A stretch of 64,000 nucleotides of DNA from Roseomonas marmotae (GTDB lineage Bacteria; Pseudomonadota; Alphaproteobacteria; Acetobacterales; Acetobacteraceae). Shown here piece by piece: positions 32,375 to 38,880 of this stretch. Numbering within the stretch: the first letter of the stretch is position 1; each line of letters starts with the position of its first letter. Location of the stretch: contig NZ_CP061092.1 of assembly GCF_017654485.1 (NCBI RefSeq), positions 155,320 through 219,319 on the forward strand, written 5' to 3'. Below the pieces are notes generated by a model, which saw only the letters and a program-made list of their open reading frames with translations, made no database searches and was not told the DNA's origin. The translations under genes were made by a program, and so were the position numbers.

Positions 32375-33696
32375 GGGACTGTCAGGAATTTCGTGTGTGG
32401 CGGGGCATAGTAGGGAAGAAGGAGACCCCCTATGGCCCGACGGAAAGAGCCGCGGATCCCGGATGCGATCCTGGACCAGTTGCTGGCCGGTGCGGACGCC
32501 AGAACGGCCTTCGAGCAGGGCGGCCTGCTGGATGAGCTGAAGAAGGCGTTCACCGAGCGGGCGCTGAACGCCGAGATGGACCACCACTTGGCCGGAGAGG
32601 GTGGTGAAGGCAACAGCCGCAACGGCTATGGCCGGAAGTCGGTGGTCACTGACAGTGGCAAGCTGGCGCTGGAGATCCCACGCGACCGGCAGGCGAGCTT
32701 CGATCCGCAGCTGATCGCCAAGTACCAGCGGCGCTTCCCTGGCTTCGATGACAAGGTCATCTCGATGTACGCCCGCGGCATGAGCGCGCGGGAGATCGTG
32801 GGCCACCTGCGCGAACTCTACGGCATCGAGGTCTCGCCCGACCTGATCAGCGCTGTCACGGATGCCGTGCTCGACGAGATCAGCGCCTGGCAGAACCGGC
32901 CGCTGGAGCCCGTCTACCCGGTGGTGTTCTTCGATGCCCTGCGGGTGAAGATCCGGGATGAGGGCCTTGTCCGCAACAAGGCGGTGCACATCGCGCTGGG
33001 CGTCCGGGCCGACGGTGGCAAGGAGATCCTGGGCCTGTGGCTGGAGCAGAATGAGGGTGCGAAGTTCTGGCTGCGGGTGATGAACGAGCTGCGCGGCCGC
33101 GGTGTCGAGGACCTGCTGCTGGCGGTGGTAGACGGGCTGAAGGGCTTCCCTGAGGCCATCCTGGCAGTGTTCCCGGAGGCCGTGGTGCAGACTTGCATTG
33201 TTCACCTCCTGCGCCAGAGCCTGGACTTCGTCGCCTACAAGGACCGCAAGCCCGTGGCCGCGGCGCTGAAGGCGATCTACCAGGCCGTGGATGCCGCCGC
33301 CGCCGAAGCGGCCCTGACTGCCTTTGAAGCAGAATTCTGGGGCCAGAAATATCCCGCCATTGGCCAGAGCTGGCGCCGCGCCTGGACCGAGGTCGTGCCG
33401 TTCTACGCATTCAGCGTCGAAATCAGACGGTTCCTCTACACCACCAATGCCATTGAGGCGCTGAACGCGAAGCTGCGCCGTGCAGTTCGAAGCCGAGGGC
33501 ACTTCCCCACGGATGAGGCCGCCCTGAAGCTGCTGTTTCTGGTCTTGCACCGGGCGGAGAAGGAGTGGACCATGCCGCCGCGGGAATGGTCCATGGCTAA
33601 GGCGCAGTTCGCCGTTCTGTTCGGCGAGCGCTTCACTCGCGCCATGGCCTGAGCATGTTCAACCGCTCCGCCGCACACGAAATTCCTGACAGTCCC
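32375..33696 (+). mobile_element. IS256-family element, copy 1
   Basis: The 1322-bp element has inverted ends GGGACTGTCAGGAATTTCG and its complement, flanked by the 8-bp direct repeat GCTTGCTC (32367-32374 and 33697-33704). It is inserted in the antisense gene of IS66. Confidence 0.95.
32432..33652 (+). CDS. IS256-family (Mutator-like) transposase, intact
   Basis: DDE transposase of 406 residues, normal length. GGLLDELKKAFTERALNAEMDHHL is the conserved N-terminus, with the catalytic Asp in VVFFDALRVKIRDEG, the second Asp in LLAVVDGLKGFPEAI and the Glu in TTNAIEALNAKLRRAVRSRG. The CxxH region is VQTCIVHLLRQSL. ATG 32432 follows GGAGA. This is the only undamaged IS256 transposase in the window and could mobilise the degenerate copy at 53985 in trans. 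Confidence 0.94.
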   Translation: MARRKEPRIPDAILDQLLAGADARTAFEQGGLLDELKKAFTERALNAEMDHHLAGEGGEGNSRNGYGRKSVVTDSGKLALEIPRDRQASFDPQLIAKYQRRFPGFDDKVISMYARGMSAREIVGHLRELYGIEVSPDLISAVTDAVLDEISAWQNRPLEPVYPVVFFDALRVKIRDEGLVRNKAVHIALGVRADGGKEILGLWLEQNEGAKFWLRVMNELRGRGVEDLLLAVVDGLKGFPEAILAVFPEAVVQTCIVHLLRQSLDFVAYKDRKPVAAALKAIYQAVDAAAAEAALTAFEAEFWGQKYPAIGQSWRRAWTEVVPFYAFSVEIRRFLYTTNAIEALNAKLRRAVRSRGHFPTDEAALKLLFLVLHRAEKEWTMPPREWSMAKAQFAVLFGERFTRAMA

Positions 33697-34249: not shown

Positions 34250-34660
34250 CTAGGAGATGTCGGCCAGCCAGACTGTATTGGGCCGGGTGACCGCGAACTG
34301 CCGGTTCAGCAGGTTCGGGGCGACCGCGAGGTCAGGGCGGCTGTTGGTGGTGGTTGGACGAAAGCGCCGGCCAGCGATCGCTCGGATCCCGTTGGCCTGC
34401 ATCAACCTCTCAACCCTGCCACGGCTCACGTGGTGTCCCTTGGCTCGCAAAGCGACCTGTAGGCGCGGGCTGCCGTAGCGGCCGTAGTGGCTGGCGTGCA
34501 GGCGTCGAATGTCGGCCAGGATTTGCCGGTTGGCCACGGCTCTGGCGCTCTTGGGACGCGTCCGCCAGGCGTAGTAGCCGGAAGCAGAAACGCCGAGCAC
34601 ACGACAGGCGGTCCGGATCGGCCAGGTACCGGCATGGGCGGCGATGACACGGAACCTCAT
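34250..34660 (-). pseudogene. IS3 orfB, N-terminal fragment
   Basis: The 136-residue leftward fragment starts MRFRVIAAHAGTWPIRTACR and includes the HTH_21 region SASGYYAWRTRP, HASHYGRYGSPRLQVALRA, and RPNTVWLADIS, where the first catalytic Asp of the rve domain lies. It then hits a stop created at the IS701 junction. About two thirds of the integrase core is missing. Confidence 0.88.
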
Positions 34661-35051
34661 CTCGGGGTTTCCGAGAAGATGCCGATGGTGGGTTCAACTG
34701 GTCAGCGCAACATGATTGATTTCATGATGTTCCGGGAGGATCCACGATGGCGCGAACCGGCCGGCCTGGCTTATCTGCGGAGCAGAAAAGGGAGCTTTGG
34801 ATCCGATGGAAGGACGGCCAGTCGCTCAGTGACATCGGACGGGCTCTCGGCAAGCCCGCGGGCTCGATCTTTGGTGTGCTGCAAGCCAAAGGCGGTATTG
34901 CGCCGCCGCTGCGGCAGCGATCTGCCCGCGCTCTGACGCTGGAGGAGCGCGAGGAGATATCGCGGGGTCTGGTGGCTGGCTTATCTTTAGGGGATTATGT
35001 ATTTGACAAACACTAACCCTGGCCATAGGATTCTGGTCAAGGAGATCGCCC

Positions 35052-35981
35052 GTGTCCGTCCTGTCCGCCCCCTACTTCCACGATGCCGACGCCGCCCGGG
35101 TGGAGCTTGAGCGCACCCTTTGGGCCAATGGCCCGGTTTGCCCGCGTTGCGGCGGCAAGGAGCGGATCACGGGCGTCAAGGGGGGCCGCGCCGGCCTTCG
35201 CCGATGCGGCCCGTGCAAGCGTCAGTTCACGGTCACGGTGGGCACGGTCTTTGAGTCCAGCCATGTTCCGCTGAACCTGTGGCTGCAAGCTGTCTATCTA
35301 ATGTGCAGCAGCAAGAAGGGTATCAGCGCGCACCAGATCATGCGGGTGCTGGACGTGCAGTACAAGACGGCTTGGTTCATGGCACATCGCATCCGCGAGG
35401 CCATGACGGCCGGCAGCCTGCCGCCGATCGGCGGCGACAGCGCGACGGTCGAAGTGGACGAGACTTTCATCGGCACGAAGTATCAGAAGCCGATGAACGC
35501 CCGTGGCTACGCGCACAAGAATGCCGTGCTGACGCTGGTTGAGCGCGGCGGCGCTGCGCGCTCCTTCCACGTGGATGGCACCGCCGCAAAGGATCTGCTG
35601 CCGATCATCCGCGCGCATGTGAAGCCCGGCACAGCCATCATGACGGATGAAGCCGGCCAGTACGTGACGCTCCGCAGCGACTTCCCGGCCCATGAGGTCG
35701 TTAAGCACGGCAAGGGCGAGTACGTGCGCGGTGCCGCGCACACCAACACAGTCGAAGGCTTCTACAGCGTGTTCAAGCGCGGAATGAAGGGCGTCTACCA
35801 GCACTGCGCTGAGAAGCATCTTCAACGCTACGTTGCGGAGTTTGATTTTCGGTACAACAATCGCGTCGCGCTTGGTATTGATGATGCCGGTCGGATCAAC
35901 CGCGCGTTGGGTGGAATTGTAGGGAAGCGGTTGACCTACCGGGACTCGTCCTTGGCCGAAGGCGCCGGGAGGCGGCGGTGA
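35052..35981 (+). CDS. IS1595-family transposase
   Basis: Transposase of 309 residues. The N-terminal zinc ribbon has Cys30, Cys33, Cys52 and Cys55 (CPRC ... CGPC). The helical region KKGISAHQIMRVLDVQYKTAWFM resembles the IS1595 helix-turn-helix. The catalytic core has Asp136 (EVDETFIG), Asp199 (MTDEAGQY) and the His-Asn-Glu region HTNTVEGFYSVFKRG (230-244). The start follows GGAGA. Its TGA overlaps the next gene (GTGA), so the passenger genes are translationally coupled to the transposase. No damage is visible. Confidence 0.93.
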   Translation: MSVLSAPYFHDADAARVELERTLWANGPVCPRCGGKERITGVKGGRAGLRRCGPCKRQFTVTVGTVFESSHVPLNLWLQAVYLMCSSKKGISAHQIMRVLDVQYKTAWFMAHRIREAMTAGSLPPIGGDSATVEVDETFIGTKYQKPMNARGYAHKNAVLTLVERGGAARSFHVDGTAAKDLLPIIRAHVKPGTAIMTDEAGQYVTLRSDFPAHEVVKHGKGEYVRGAAHTNTVEGFYSVFKRGMKGVYQHCAEKHLQRYVAEFDFRYNNRVALGIDDAGRINRALGGIVGKRLTYRDSSLAEGAGRRR

Positions 35982-36778
35982 TCGAAGAGAAGCAAGCAAC
36001 TTTGGTGCTACACGGTCTGGAGACAGACAACCGTCTGGTCCGAGCCGACGTGTTCGCCCGGAAGCTTACGGCCTTCCTTCGTGGGCTCGTGGCGGCCGAC
36101 AAGCTGGCGAACGGAAAGCAGCTTCACCAGTTCGTCATCACCGACTTGGCCATTGGTAGTGCCAAGGTCAAGATTCGCGAGAAGCAGAAGACGCGTGAGA
36201 GGCCGACCGCTTCCGGCGTCGCCACTTACGAGCGTGCCTTGGGTGCGATCTACAATGGTGATCGGCATGCCCAAGAGCTGCCCGAAGGGCTCTTGGCGAC
36301 GGTCACCAGCCTCACGAAGGGGGTAGATTCCGACTTCGCGCACGGCGAAGTCTCCTTCGCTAGCAGCAACGTGGTGCGCGTTGACGATTACCTGCACCGG
36401 CAATCCCAGCGGACGCGCGAGTTGATGCGCCATCCCGTTCAGCAACTAAGTCACCGCTACTATCACGGCCTCGCGAGGGGCGCCTTCGACGGCGTCCTGC
36501 GCGTCATGGACAGCCGTGGCGAGACGTTGCGGGCCAAGCTGGTGACGACTGCCGGCGGAGTTGAGATCGATTGCGTGGTGAATAAATCTCGCGTGCCCGA
36601 AATCCGCGAACTCCTTGAGGAGCGCGTGAGGATAGAAGGTCTCGCGCACTACGATGGGGAACAGCAGATCCCGGTTCGGGTAGACATCAACAAGGTCCAC
36701 ATCGTCAAACAGAAACCGGATCTCATTCGATGGCGCGGCGCGATGCTTCCGGGCGCCACTACCGGCGAGGACTGGTAG
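35978..36778 (+). CDS. unrecognised passenger protein of the IS1595 transposon
   Basis: A 266-residue protein I cannot assign. It is hydrophilic, without signal peptide or membrane segment. Residues 1-75 (LVLHGLETDNRLVRADVFARKLTAFL, HQFVITDLAIGSAKVKI) look like an alpha-beta domain. The centre is rich in basic residues (RQSQRTRELMRH), and the C-terminal third (LRAKLVTTAGGVEIDCVV, VRIEGLAHYDGEQQIPVRVDI) suggests a small beta-barrel of nucleic-acid-binding type. GTG start overlapping the transposase stop. The gene is followed after two bases by the PIN gene, so the pair may form a complex; antitoxin, adaptor or accessory transposition roles are all possible. Confidence 0.7.
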   Translation: MIEEKQATLVLHGLETDNRLVRADVFARKLTAFLRGLVAADKLANGKQLHQFVITDLAIGSAKVKIREKQKTRERPTASGVATYERALGAIYNGDRHAQELPEGLLATVTSLTKGVDSDFAHGEVSFASSNVVRVDDYLHRQSQRTRELMRHPVQQLSHRYYHGLARGAFDGVLRVMDSRGETLRAKLVTTAGGVEIDCVVNKSRVPEIRELLEERVRIEGLAHYDGEQQIPVRVDINKVHIVKQKPDLIRWRGAMLPGATTGEDW

Positions 36779-36780
36779 TC

Positions 36781-37356
36781 ATGGCTGTGGAGCGCGAATA
36801 CTTCTGGGACAGCTGCGTTCTTATCGCCTATCTGTGCGACGAAACGCACGCCTACGACATCGATAGCATCAAGGCTCATCTAGAGGACGCAAGAACTGGC
36901 CGCATAAAGATCTACGTGTCCAGCATAGCCGCCGCCGAAGTGCTTCCCTCTCGTCTGAAAGTAGCGCCCTCATTCGAAGATTTTATGGACGACTACCTTA
37001 GCGCCATCGTTCCTTTCGATCCGTCGCCCAACGTGATGACACTCGCGGCGCGGCTCCGCGACTTGCCCTACATGGATGCAAGAGGGCAGCGGCGGACGCT
37101 GAGCACGCCCGATGCCATCATGCTCGCGACGGCGGTTCACTTAGGGGAGGCGTGGTCGGTCAGGCTCGCCGCTATCCACACCTTCGACAAGGGCGGACGC
37201 AAGGACGCAGACGGAAGCAAGTCAGTCCCGATCCTCGGTTATGAGAACTGCTGCACCGGCTTCGATCCCGAACAGATGGTACTCGCTGAGCGCGTCATTC
37301 GCATCACGCGATGCCCCCCGATCCACCCAAACCCGAAGCTGCCCTATGACCCGTAA
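36781..37356 (+). CDS. PIN-domain ribonuclease-like protein
   Basis: A 191-residue PIN-domain protein, longer than a typical VapC (about 130). The four acidic residues of the PIN active site are present: Asp10 (YFWDSCVLIAYL), Glu53 (AAAEVL), Asp111 (STPDAIMLATA) and Asp136 (HTFDKGG). PIN proteins are Mg-dependent RNases in toxin-antitoxin and RNA-processing systems. The ATG at 36781 lies two bases after the upstream stop. A C-terminal extension of about 50 residues with Cys-Cys and Pro-rich segments is unusual. A small basic ORF overlaps its 3' end. Confidence 0.85.
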   Translation: MAVEREYFWDSCVLIAYLCDETHAYDIDSIKAHLEDARTGRIKIYVSSIAAAEVLPSRLKVAPSFEDFMDDYLSAIVPFDPSPNVMTLAARLRDLPYMDARGQRRTLSTPDAIMLATAVHLGEAWSVRLAAIHTFDKGGRKDADGSKSVPILGYENCCTGFDPEQMVLAERVIRITRCPPIHPNPKLPYDP

Positions 37357-37531
37357 GTCAGACGCGGCTTCAGTCCAGAAGCTTCGCTTCATTGAAGCGG
37401 CGCGCAAGCTGGGCGCAAACGAGGACGAGGATGACTTCCGCGCCAAACTGGCCGTGATCGCGCGCCAGAAGCCGAAGGGCGCGGCGCCGCCAAATCCGCC
37501 GAAGGCGCCCAAGGGGAAGAAGGGCGGCTGA
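37346..37531 (+). CDS. small basic protein, transposon passenger
   Basis: A 61-residue protein overlapping the PIN stop by 11 bases. The N-terminal half (SVQKLRFIEAARKLGANEDEDDFRAKLAVIARQ) is helical with an acidic patch, and the tail is Lys-Pro-rich (PKGAAPPNPPKAPKGKKGG). It has no recognised domain. Size, overlap and mixed charge fit a small partner or antitoxin of the PIN protein, but that is inference. Confidence 0.65.
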   Translation: MTRKSDAASVQKLRFIEAARKLGANEDEDDFRAKLAVIARQKPKGAAPPNPPKAPKGKKGG

Positions 37532-38880
37532 TCCAGCGGGGCTAGGGCGACAGTCCTACTCGGCAGCCCGTGTTTGCGAAGTGCATAATCCCCTATCTTT
37601 ACGCCAGATCGCGGCGCAACTCGGCCGATCGCCGTCGACCATCAGCCGTGAGATCGGCCGCAATGGTGGCCGCATGCAGTATCGTGCTATGGCTGCTGAT
37701 GGACGAAGCTGGCAGCAAGCGTGCCGCCCCAAGCCGTGCCTGCTGGCCACCCATCGGTCTCTGCAGGCCGTGGTGGCAGAGAAGCTGGCGCAGCAGTGGT
37801 CGCCACAGCAGGTATCCGGCTGGCTTGAGGTGGAGTACCCTGACGACGAGGCCATGCGGGTGTCGCACGAGACGATCTACAGGAGCCTGTTCATTCAGGC
37901 GCGCGGCGTCCTGAAGAAAGAGCTGCTGGCGACGCTCCGGAGCCGCCGTCTGATGCGGCGCGCCAAGACTTCCACGACGGAAGGACAACCCAGAGGGCAG
38001 ATCATCGGCGCCGTGTCGATCCGCGAACGCCCCGCCGAGATTGAGGACCGTGCTGTTCCAGGCCACTGGGAAGGCGACCTGCTCTCAGGTGGCAAGAACA
38101 CGCATGTTGCGACCCTGGTGGAGCGCCGATCCCGCTTTCTGATGCTCGTCCAGGTGGATGGCAAAGATACTGAGAGCGTGGTTGATGCGCTGGTCCGGCA
38201 GGTCCAGCAACTTCCGCGGGGGCTGATGTCGTCGCTGACCTGGGACCGCGGAATGGAGCTGGCCCAGCACAAGCGTTTCGCTGTTGCGGCGGATGTTGCG
38301 GTATACTTCTGTGATCCCCGCAGCCCCTGGCAGCGGGGCAGCAACGAGAACACCAACGGTCTTTTGCGGCAGTACCTGCCCAGGGGATCGGATCTATCCG
38401 TTCACAGCCAGGATGATCTCGACACGATCGCCCTGCGGCTCAACACCCGGCCAAGGAAAACCCTTGGCTACAAAACACCAGCCGCTACCCTTGCCCAGGC
38501 CGTTGCGCTGACCAGTTGAACCCACCATGGCTTTTTTTAAAATGTCGCGATCAAGGCGCGCGCGCTCGAGCTCACGACGCAGGCGAGCAATCTCGGCAGC
38601 CTGATCCGCCGGCGAAGATGCTGGGCCAGATGGCGAAGCGACAGGCCCCGTGCCTGCCGTAACGGGCTGCGGCCGCGGCACCTCACCAGTCTGCCGTCGC
38701 CGCCAGTTGCGCAGCATGGAGGGCTGGATGCCCAACTCGCCCGCGACTTGCGTCAGCGGGCGGCCGCTGGAGCGCAACAGCGCAACCGCCTCCTGCTTGA
38801 ACTCCGGCGTGAATCGCGCCGTGTCTTGTTCATCGGACACCTTCCTTGCTCCCAGGGAGCTTACTCAGCGGTGTCCACCA

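Follow-up and report, generated by a model that had tools for sequence, protein, structure and literature searches.

Why do small transposons carry toxin-antitoxin genes? This open question is raised by a locus of Roseomonas marmotae. Within a stretch of 64,000 nucleotides of contig NZ_CP061092.1 (positions 155,320 to 219,319 of the forward strand; hereafter the window, whose first letter is position 1), a 2604-bp element of the insertion sequence (IS) family IS1595 can be read directly from the sequence at 34990-37593. Its transposase gene is followed by genes for a partner protein of 266 amino acids (aa), which we call U266, a PIN-domain protein of 191 aa (PIN), and a small protein of 61 aa (S61). 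What is this cargo, and does it belong to the transposon? We found that U266 and PIN form a linked pair that occurs both in and outside IS1595 elements. The pair probably consists of a ribonuclease and a partner that restrains it, which would make it a toxin-antitoxin-like or abortive-defence cargo of the transposon.

A precise insertion of an IS1595-family element

The transposase (309 aa, 35052-35981, plus strand) matched the NCBIfam IS1595 model (NF033547; 197.6 bits, cut-off 75, E 2.3e-58) and the Pfam domains DDE_Tnp_IS1595 (PF12762; 124.5 bits, cut-off 27, E 4.9e-36) and Zn_ribbon_IS1595 (PF12760; 33.8 bits, cut-off 25.4, E 3.3e-08), the latter as an N-terminal zinc ribbon. IS1595 inverted repeats start with GG. 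Comparison of the two ends of the element revealed terminal inverted repeats at 34990-35013 (24 nt) and 37570-37593, both of which read GGGGATTATG inward and agree at 20 of their first 24 positions. Outside them lie exact 8-bp target duplications, TATCTTTA, at 34982-34989 and 37594-37601. An 8-bp target duplication is given as a feature of the IS1595 family in the accessible part of one report (PMC8101967). A transposase with a zinc ribbon, the 8-bp duplication and the GGGGATTATG ends, all features of IS1595 membership, are present here.

The element interrupts a second transposase gene on the plus strand, of the IS30 family as judged by eye, the front part of which starts at 34747 and the remainder of which occupies 37602-38519. 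This gene has four near-identical copies in the genome. One is the interrupted copy, and the other three are uninterrupted, each with an exact 80-nt empty site containing one TATCTTTA; they are identical to the interrupted copy over at least 303 nt leftward and over all 299 compared nt rightward. Because three of the four target copies carry the exact empty site, the boundaries of the element are not a product of chance, and the insertion is precise and probably recent. The element was found once in its genome. The first-pass annotation of the window, which had described an IS1595-type transposon with cargo at 34990-37593, is confirmed by the transposase profiles, ends, duplications and empty sites, and its boundaries were correct to the base. 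More transposase-like open reading frames (ORFs) lie near the IS30-type gene, at 32432-33652 (IS256-type) and 34250-34660 (a minus-strand IS3-type fragment), both classified by eye, and they form an insertion-sequence nest around it.

Linked genes for U266 and PIN

The genes behind the transposase are closely joined. The GTG start of U266 at 35978 overlaps the transposase stop at 35979-35981 (a GTGA overlap), the U266 stop at 36776-36778 is followed after a 2-bp gap by the PIN ATG at 36781, and the PIN and S61 genes overlap by 11 bp (37346-37356). All three joints, read from the sequence, are as first described.

PIN (36781-37356, plus strand) matched the Pfam PIN domain (PF01850) at 27.5 bits, with a cut-off of 23.6. 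Glu53, Asp111 and Asp136 were invariant across the 18 rows of our alignment A2, and Asp10 was present in all 15 of the rows extending that far, in agreement with the four acidic residues singled out at first reading.

U266 (35978-36778, plus strand) had no family above cut-off in Pfam, NCBIfam or PADLOC, and no Pfam match up to E 1. Its predicted structure begins with an alpha/beta domain (residues 1-160, 35978-36457, plus strand), ferredoxin-like in order by eye, for which fold comparison gave no convincing match. Residues 162-248 (36461-36721, plus strand) are predicted to form an OB fold, and structure comparison placed this part of the model close to SSB and PriB. OB folds are common among RNA- and DNA-binding proteins. 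The C-terminal tail (residues 251-266, 36728-36775, plus strand) was modelled with a predicted local distance difference test score (pLDDT) below 50 and has a conserved terminal Trp: a Trp lies within the last 10 residues in 103 of the 120 listed U266 proteins, the window's own included.

The pair in and outside IS1595 elements

Among 5.8 billion predicted proteins, a search found 150 for U266 and 19 for PIN, the query included in both counts. A wider scan gave seven U266 loci, among them the Gluconobacter locus L004, which is the same locus as L087. Of 15 U266-bearing loci, 14 have PIN as the direct, co-directional neighbour of U266, and in 13 of these 14 pairs the PIN start lay -7 to +5 nt from the U266 stop; in the remaining pair, L091, the nearest start was at -14.

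An IS1595 transposase precedes five of the 14 pairs (the window, L006, L092, which is L010, L089 and L042). The other nine, the free pairs, lack such a neighbour, L002 and L003 being counted so on little upstream DNA. When the 14 pairs were placed in a tree, where three rows have long branches and two (L042 and L093) are less than half filled, IS-borne and free pairs were mixed; four changes of setting were needed, at least three of them forced by well-supported branches. L101 is an additional IS-borne pair, of the L042 type, outside the 14. At L010 and L089 the transposase is split into two frames and the pair next to it is intact. For the free relatives L002 and L003, the ratio of nonsynonymous to synonymous substitution rates (dN/dS) was 0.14 in U266 and 0.31 in PIN. 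The view that the module belongs to IS1595 is not supported. The first-pass annotation had named two findings that would argue against a functional module, U266 and PIN mostly outside IS1595 elements or the three genes rarely together, and the outcome is divided: U266 and PIN are almost never apart, yet most of the pairs lie outside such elements.

We ran PADLOC on the neighbours of three of the nine free pairs, chosen by eye. The pair adjoins a Dsr1-type protein at L002 (4.9e-138), a weak SIR2 match at L007 (2.9e-4) and a type II/III-like methyltransferase at L088 (1.9e-58). The methyltransferase at L088:8983-10392, beside the free pair, and that at L044:3228-4823, inside an IS1595 element with a PIN module, have the same best PADLOC model, PDLC03354. 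By eye, an integrase-like ORF was seen nearby at L005 and L093 and a conjugation-type ORF at L087.

S61 follows the transposase lineage

S61 (37346-37531, plus strand) had been taken as the third member of the module. Its distribution was followed with a profile, the transposase tree and a protein search. The profile, built from the loci studied here, detected S61-type ORFs in 15 of 45 IS1595 loci, always on the transposase strand, and in none of the nine free-pair loci. Four of the five IS-borne pairs have one (the window, L006, L042 and L089, not L092). In all nine cases in which both repeats and duplications were present, S61 lay inside the element. One supported transposase clade (96/97), the cargo of which includes HEPN, Panacea and PIN, has S61 in 13 of its 16 members, and in a second sample it occurred in eight of 25 loci, every time on the transposase strand. 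The protein search found eight S61 proteins, its own included. S61 tracks the transposase lineage and turns up again beside unrelated cargo; we regard it as an accessory of that lineage and not as part of the PIN pair. Of the proposed three-gene module, the U266-PIN pair stands and S61 falls away.

Related elements and exchange of cargo

Two separate samples of related elements were collected. For the first, the transposase search of 289 genomes of the class gave 83 matches in 44 genomes at E 1e-40 or better, and, apart from the match of the window itself, 41 of these, drawn mainly from the higher scores, were taken with wide flanks; with L001, L006 and L010 this made 44 transposases. Inverted repeats (at least 17 of 24 nt) together with duplications (at most one mismatch) were found for 22 of the 44, delimiting elements of 1857-4306 bp, and four more had repeats of at least 20 of 24 nt and no matching duplications. 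All 26 contain at least 859 bp outside the transposase. The second sample, from 395 genomes of the order, added 25 loci, seven of which had repeat-defined ends (2344-5636 bp), three of these with exact duplications. The 33 related elements with found ends in the two samples therefore span 1857-5636 bp and each has room for cargo, while bare copies may exist among the lower-scoring matches and the elements for which ends were not found. Two different IS1595 elements are neighbours at L047 (3772-6053 and 6063-8415; 2282 and 2353 bp): they are inserted back to back in opposite orientation with 9 bp between them, and each is flanked by exact 8-bp duplications.

Transposases that form well-supported sister pairs are accompanied by different cargo. 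L006, with the U266-PIN pair, is sister to L050, and L010, with the same pair, to L052, the cargo of L050 and L052 belonging to no family. The transposase of L089 pairs with that of L055, which has stops. When the window element was compared with 16 relatives, DNA similarity was confined to the left end and the transposase and never extended past element position 962, except that L100 additionally shares the last 26 bp.

We then counted the cargo of 30 elements with repeat-defined ends, 23 from the first sample and seven from the second; the window was excluded, as were L006 and L010, which had been found through U266. The scan covered the main cargo ORFs, in the second sample Pfam was run on all elements but L107, and DUF3800, DUF1828 and Cas2-like proteins were counted as conflict families by judgement. 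L013-L038 are shorter versions of L042-L074. In the first sample, 10 of 23 elements had a cargo protein that passed the Pfam cut-off for a family of nuclease, toxin-antitoxin, restriction or defence type: PIN (L042), PIN_10 with DUF433, followed by an S61-type gene (L043), PIN with an N6_N4 methylase (L044), DUF3800 (L048), NYN (L056), a 90-aa Cas2-like protein (L060:4487-4756; CRISPR_Cas2, 25.6 bits, cut-off 23.8), DUF1828 with a PADLOC match to PDC-M24B (L061; 4.1e-12), SocA_Panacea (L065), RelA_SpoT with a PADLOC match to the phage-defence candidate PDC-S33 (L068:2056-3231; 3.8e-100), and a C5 methylase with GIY-YIG (L074). In the second sample, three of seven had such cargo: an Eco57I/N6 methylase in Pfam with a type II restriction endonuclease match in PADLOC (L099), SLFN_AlbA_2 with a match to a pAgo model in PADLOC (L100), and PIN in Pfam (L101). 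The total was 13 of 30, an MT-A70 methylase at L119 in the second sample being kept outside the count. Among 10 random ORFs just outside the first-sample elements, some of which may be spurious, none fell into a conflict family; seven had some Pfam family, including phage integrase and phage capsid.

Two further elements with exact duplications deserve mention. L102 (2969 bp) encodes a sub-threshold PIN (16.6 bits) followed by an S61 gene, and the protein before this PIN aligns weakly to the OB region of U266. The main cargo of L105 (2386 bp) is a 299-aa protein (L105:3681-4577) with no Pfam or PADLOC family up to E 0.1.

Some of the cargo without a family is probably of HEPN type. Our criterion for a HEPN ribonuclease was an Rx4H motif in a HEPN domain. 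The motif RNxxxH, chosen after inspection, occurred in eight of 18 family-less main cargo proteins, some from loci without defined ends, against a mean of 0.3 in shuffled sequences, 0 of 2000 shufflings reaching eight. It occurred in one of 44 transposases and in 21 of the 637 ORFs of the loci, cargo included, and in the second sample in six of 21 loci against 0.68 by shuffling. Looser forms of the motif showed less excess or none. The HEPN nature of these proteins is only probable because a single one of them, L032 (= L063), passes the Pfam HEPN cut-off and PADLOC added almost nothing. The Cas2-like cargo at L060 adjoins an RNxxxH protein.

Function of the U266-PIN pair

We regard the element as a cargo-bearing IS1595-family transposon, a 'transporter IS', whose cargo would be a ribonuclease conflict module of two genes. 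Linked translation would yield U266 and PIN together, and U266, with its alpha/beta domain and OB fold, would bind PIN and keep it inactive, probably aided by the flexible, Trp-ended C-terminal tail. If U266 were lost, by degradation or by loss of the element, or if it sensed foreign nucleic acid, PIN would cut cellular RNA and growth would stop, so that the pair would favour retention of the element or protect the host. We infer the ribonuclease activity, its inhibition by U266, the toxicity and the benefit, and we think this reading probable because the pairing is near-constant, translation is linked, the PIN active site is intact and the tail fits it; the changes of setting and the other ribonuclease and defence cargo of sibling elements fit it as well. 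An intact PIN domain, a tightly linked partner and the toxin-antitoxin or defence character, all proposed at first reading, are supported, and sequence alone cannot decide between addiction and abortive defence.

Several observations weigh against a restrained ribonuclease. U266 is bigger than the usual PIN antitoxins and has none of their DNA-binding domains in Pfam. A profile search with PIN found no relative among solved structures, and neither U266 nor PIN had a PADLOC match up to E 0.1, no catalogued defence protein being matched. U266 is rare, occurring in three of 385 genomes of the class, six of 395 of the order and one of 398 of the phylum, with its own genome counted in each. Nor is the pair always kept, since L090, the one exception among the 15 U266-bearing loci, retains a decayed transposase and a U266 fragment with no PIN match.

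Alternatively, U266 could activate PIN on sensing phage or other foreign nucleic acid with its OB fold, in which case PIN alone would be non-toxic. The closeness of the OB fold to SSB and PriB, the Dsr1, weak SIR2 and methyltransferase neighbours of three free pairs, and the two phage-defence candidates and restriction-modification genes among sibling cargo all speak for such a sensor. However, those neighbours were picked by eye from three of nine free pairs, and a short conserved tail on a folded partner is more typical of antitoxins, so that we consider activation by U266 unlikely. U266 and PIN might also act on the mRNA or the transposition intermediates of the element and limit or promote its movement, as the first-pass annotation had considered; in the window the U266 start overlaps the transposase stop and the genes are co-directional. 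This RNA-level control is disfavoured because sister transposases (L006/L050, L010/L052) have unrelated cargo in the same slot; moreover, nine of the 14 pairs are away from any IS1595 transposase and two are intact beside split ones (L010, L089), which makes such a role very improbable. We give just as little credence to the idea that the cargo plays no part in conflict and is, for example, an RNA-processing pair acquired by chance. This idea is opposed by the three or more switches of the pair into or out of an IS1595 setting and by conflict-type families in 13 of 30 elements against none of 10 flanking control ORFs, even though 17 of the 30 have no conflict family above threshold and other IS1595 passengers are known, such as the transcription regulator named in the accessible part of PMC11891212.

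Relation to known systems

The primary paper on the IS1595-family 'transporter IS' is reportedly Siguier et al. 2009. That these elements carry passenger genes is already known from the accessible parts of two later sources (PMC8496243, PMC11891212), and the window element resembles them in its zinc-ribbon transposase, 8-bp duplications and passengers beside the transposase. It differs in what is carried: the passenger named in those parts is a transcription regulator, and PIN, HEPN or U266-like proteins are not mentioned there. A literature search, to which most subscription papers were closed, turned up no paper describing an IS1595 element with PIN or HEPN cargo. Tn3 transposons have recruited PIN and HEPN toxin-antitoxin pairs in many separate events, and 39 of 190 Tn3 elements carry a toxin-antitoxin pair with classical antitoxins, according to the available text of PMC7157771. 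PIN, HEPN and other toxin modules are likewise placed beside the transposition genes there, whereas here the element is IS-sized, every element with found ends has cargo, and the partner is a large OB-fold protein.

The closest comparison for the pair itself is VapBC. Two linked genes, the partner upstream, and a PIN protein with conserved acidic residues describe VapBC in the accessible part of PMC2701414, and the U266-PIN loci share this order and spacing (14 of 15 loci; 13 of 14 pairs within -7 to +5 nt). The VapBC partner given there is a small RHH, AbrB, PHD or DUF433 protein, whereas U266 has 266 aa, an OB fold in the model behind the alpha/beta domain, and no Pfam match to a small DNA-binding domain up to E 1. 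We do not class the pair as VapBC because the small DNA-binding partner is missing, and U266-PIN may nevertheless work like VapBC. DUF433 (COG2442) with PIN is a predicted toxin-antitoxin family in the same part of that source (PMC2701414). In the related element L043 a DUF433-PIN_10 pair and an S61-type gene occupy the same slot as the window's cargo, with a partner family unrelated to U266 and another PIN family.

It is quite possible, though we stop short of calling it probable, that this IS1595 lineage lives by an interchangeable ribonuclease, toxin-antitoxin or defence module. The transposase, often S61, and the ends would persist while modules such as U266-PIN, DUF433-PIN, HEPN-like, NYN, Panacea, RelA/SpoT and restriction-modification are swapped, and U266-PIN would represent a previously undescribed ribonuclease system of two genes, spreading both in this way and alone. 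U266 itself is a protein family without a database model and a near-constant partner of a PIN protein. For the question why small transposons carry toxin-antitoxin genes, the lineage offers IS-sized elements with a cargo region in each one whose ends were found, much of it nuclease- or defence-like, and a slot that takes unrelated modules. The same type of transposase occurs with different modules, and these elements are therefore natural replicates, which permit direct tests of the effect of a module on element retention, phage blocking and transposition.

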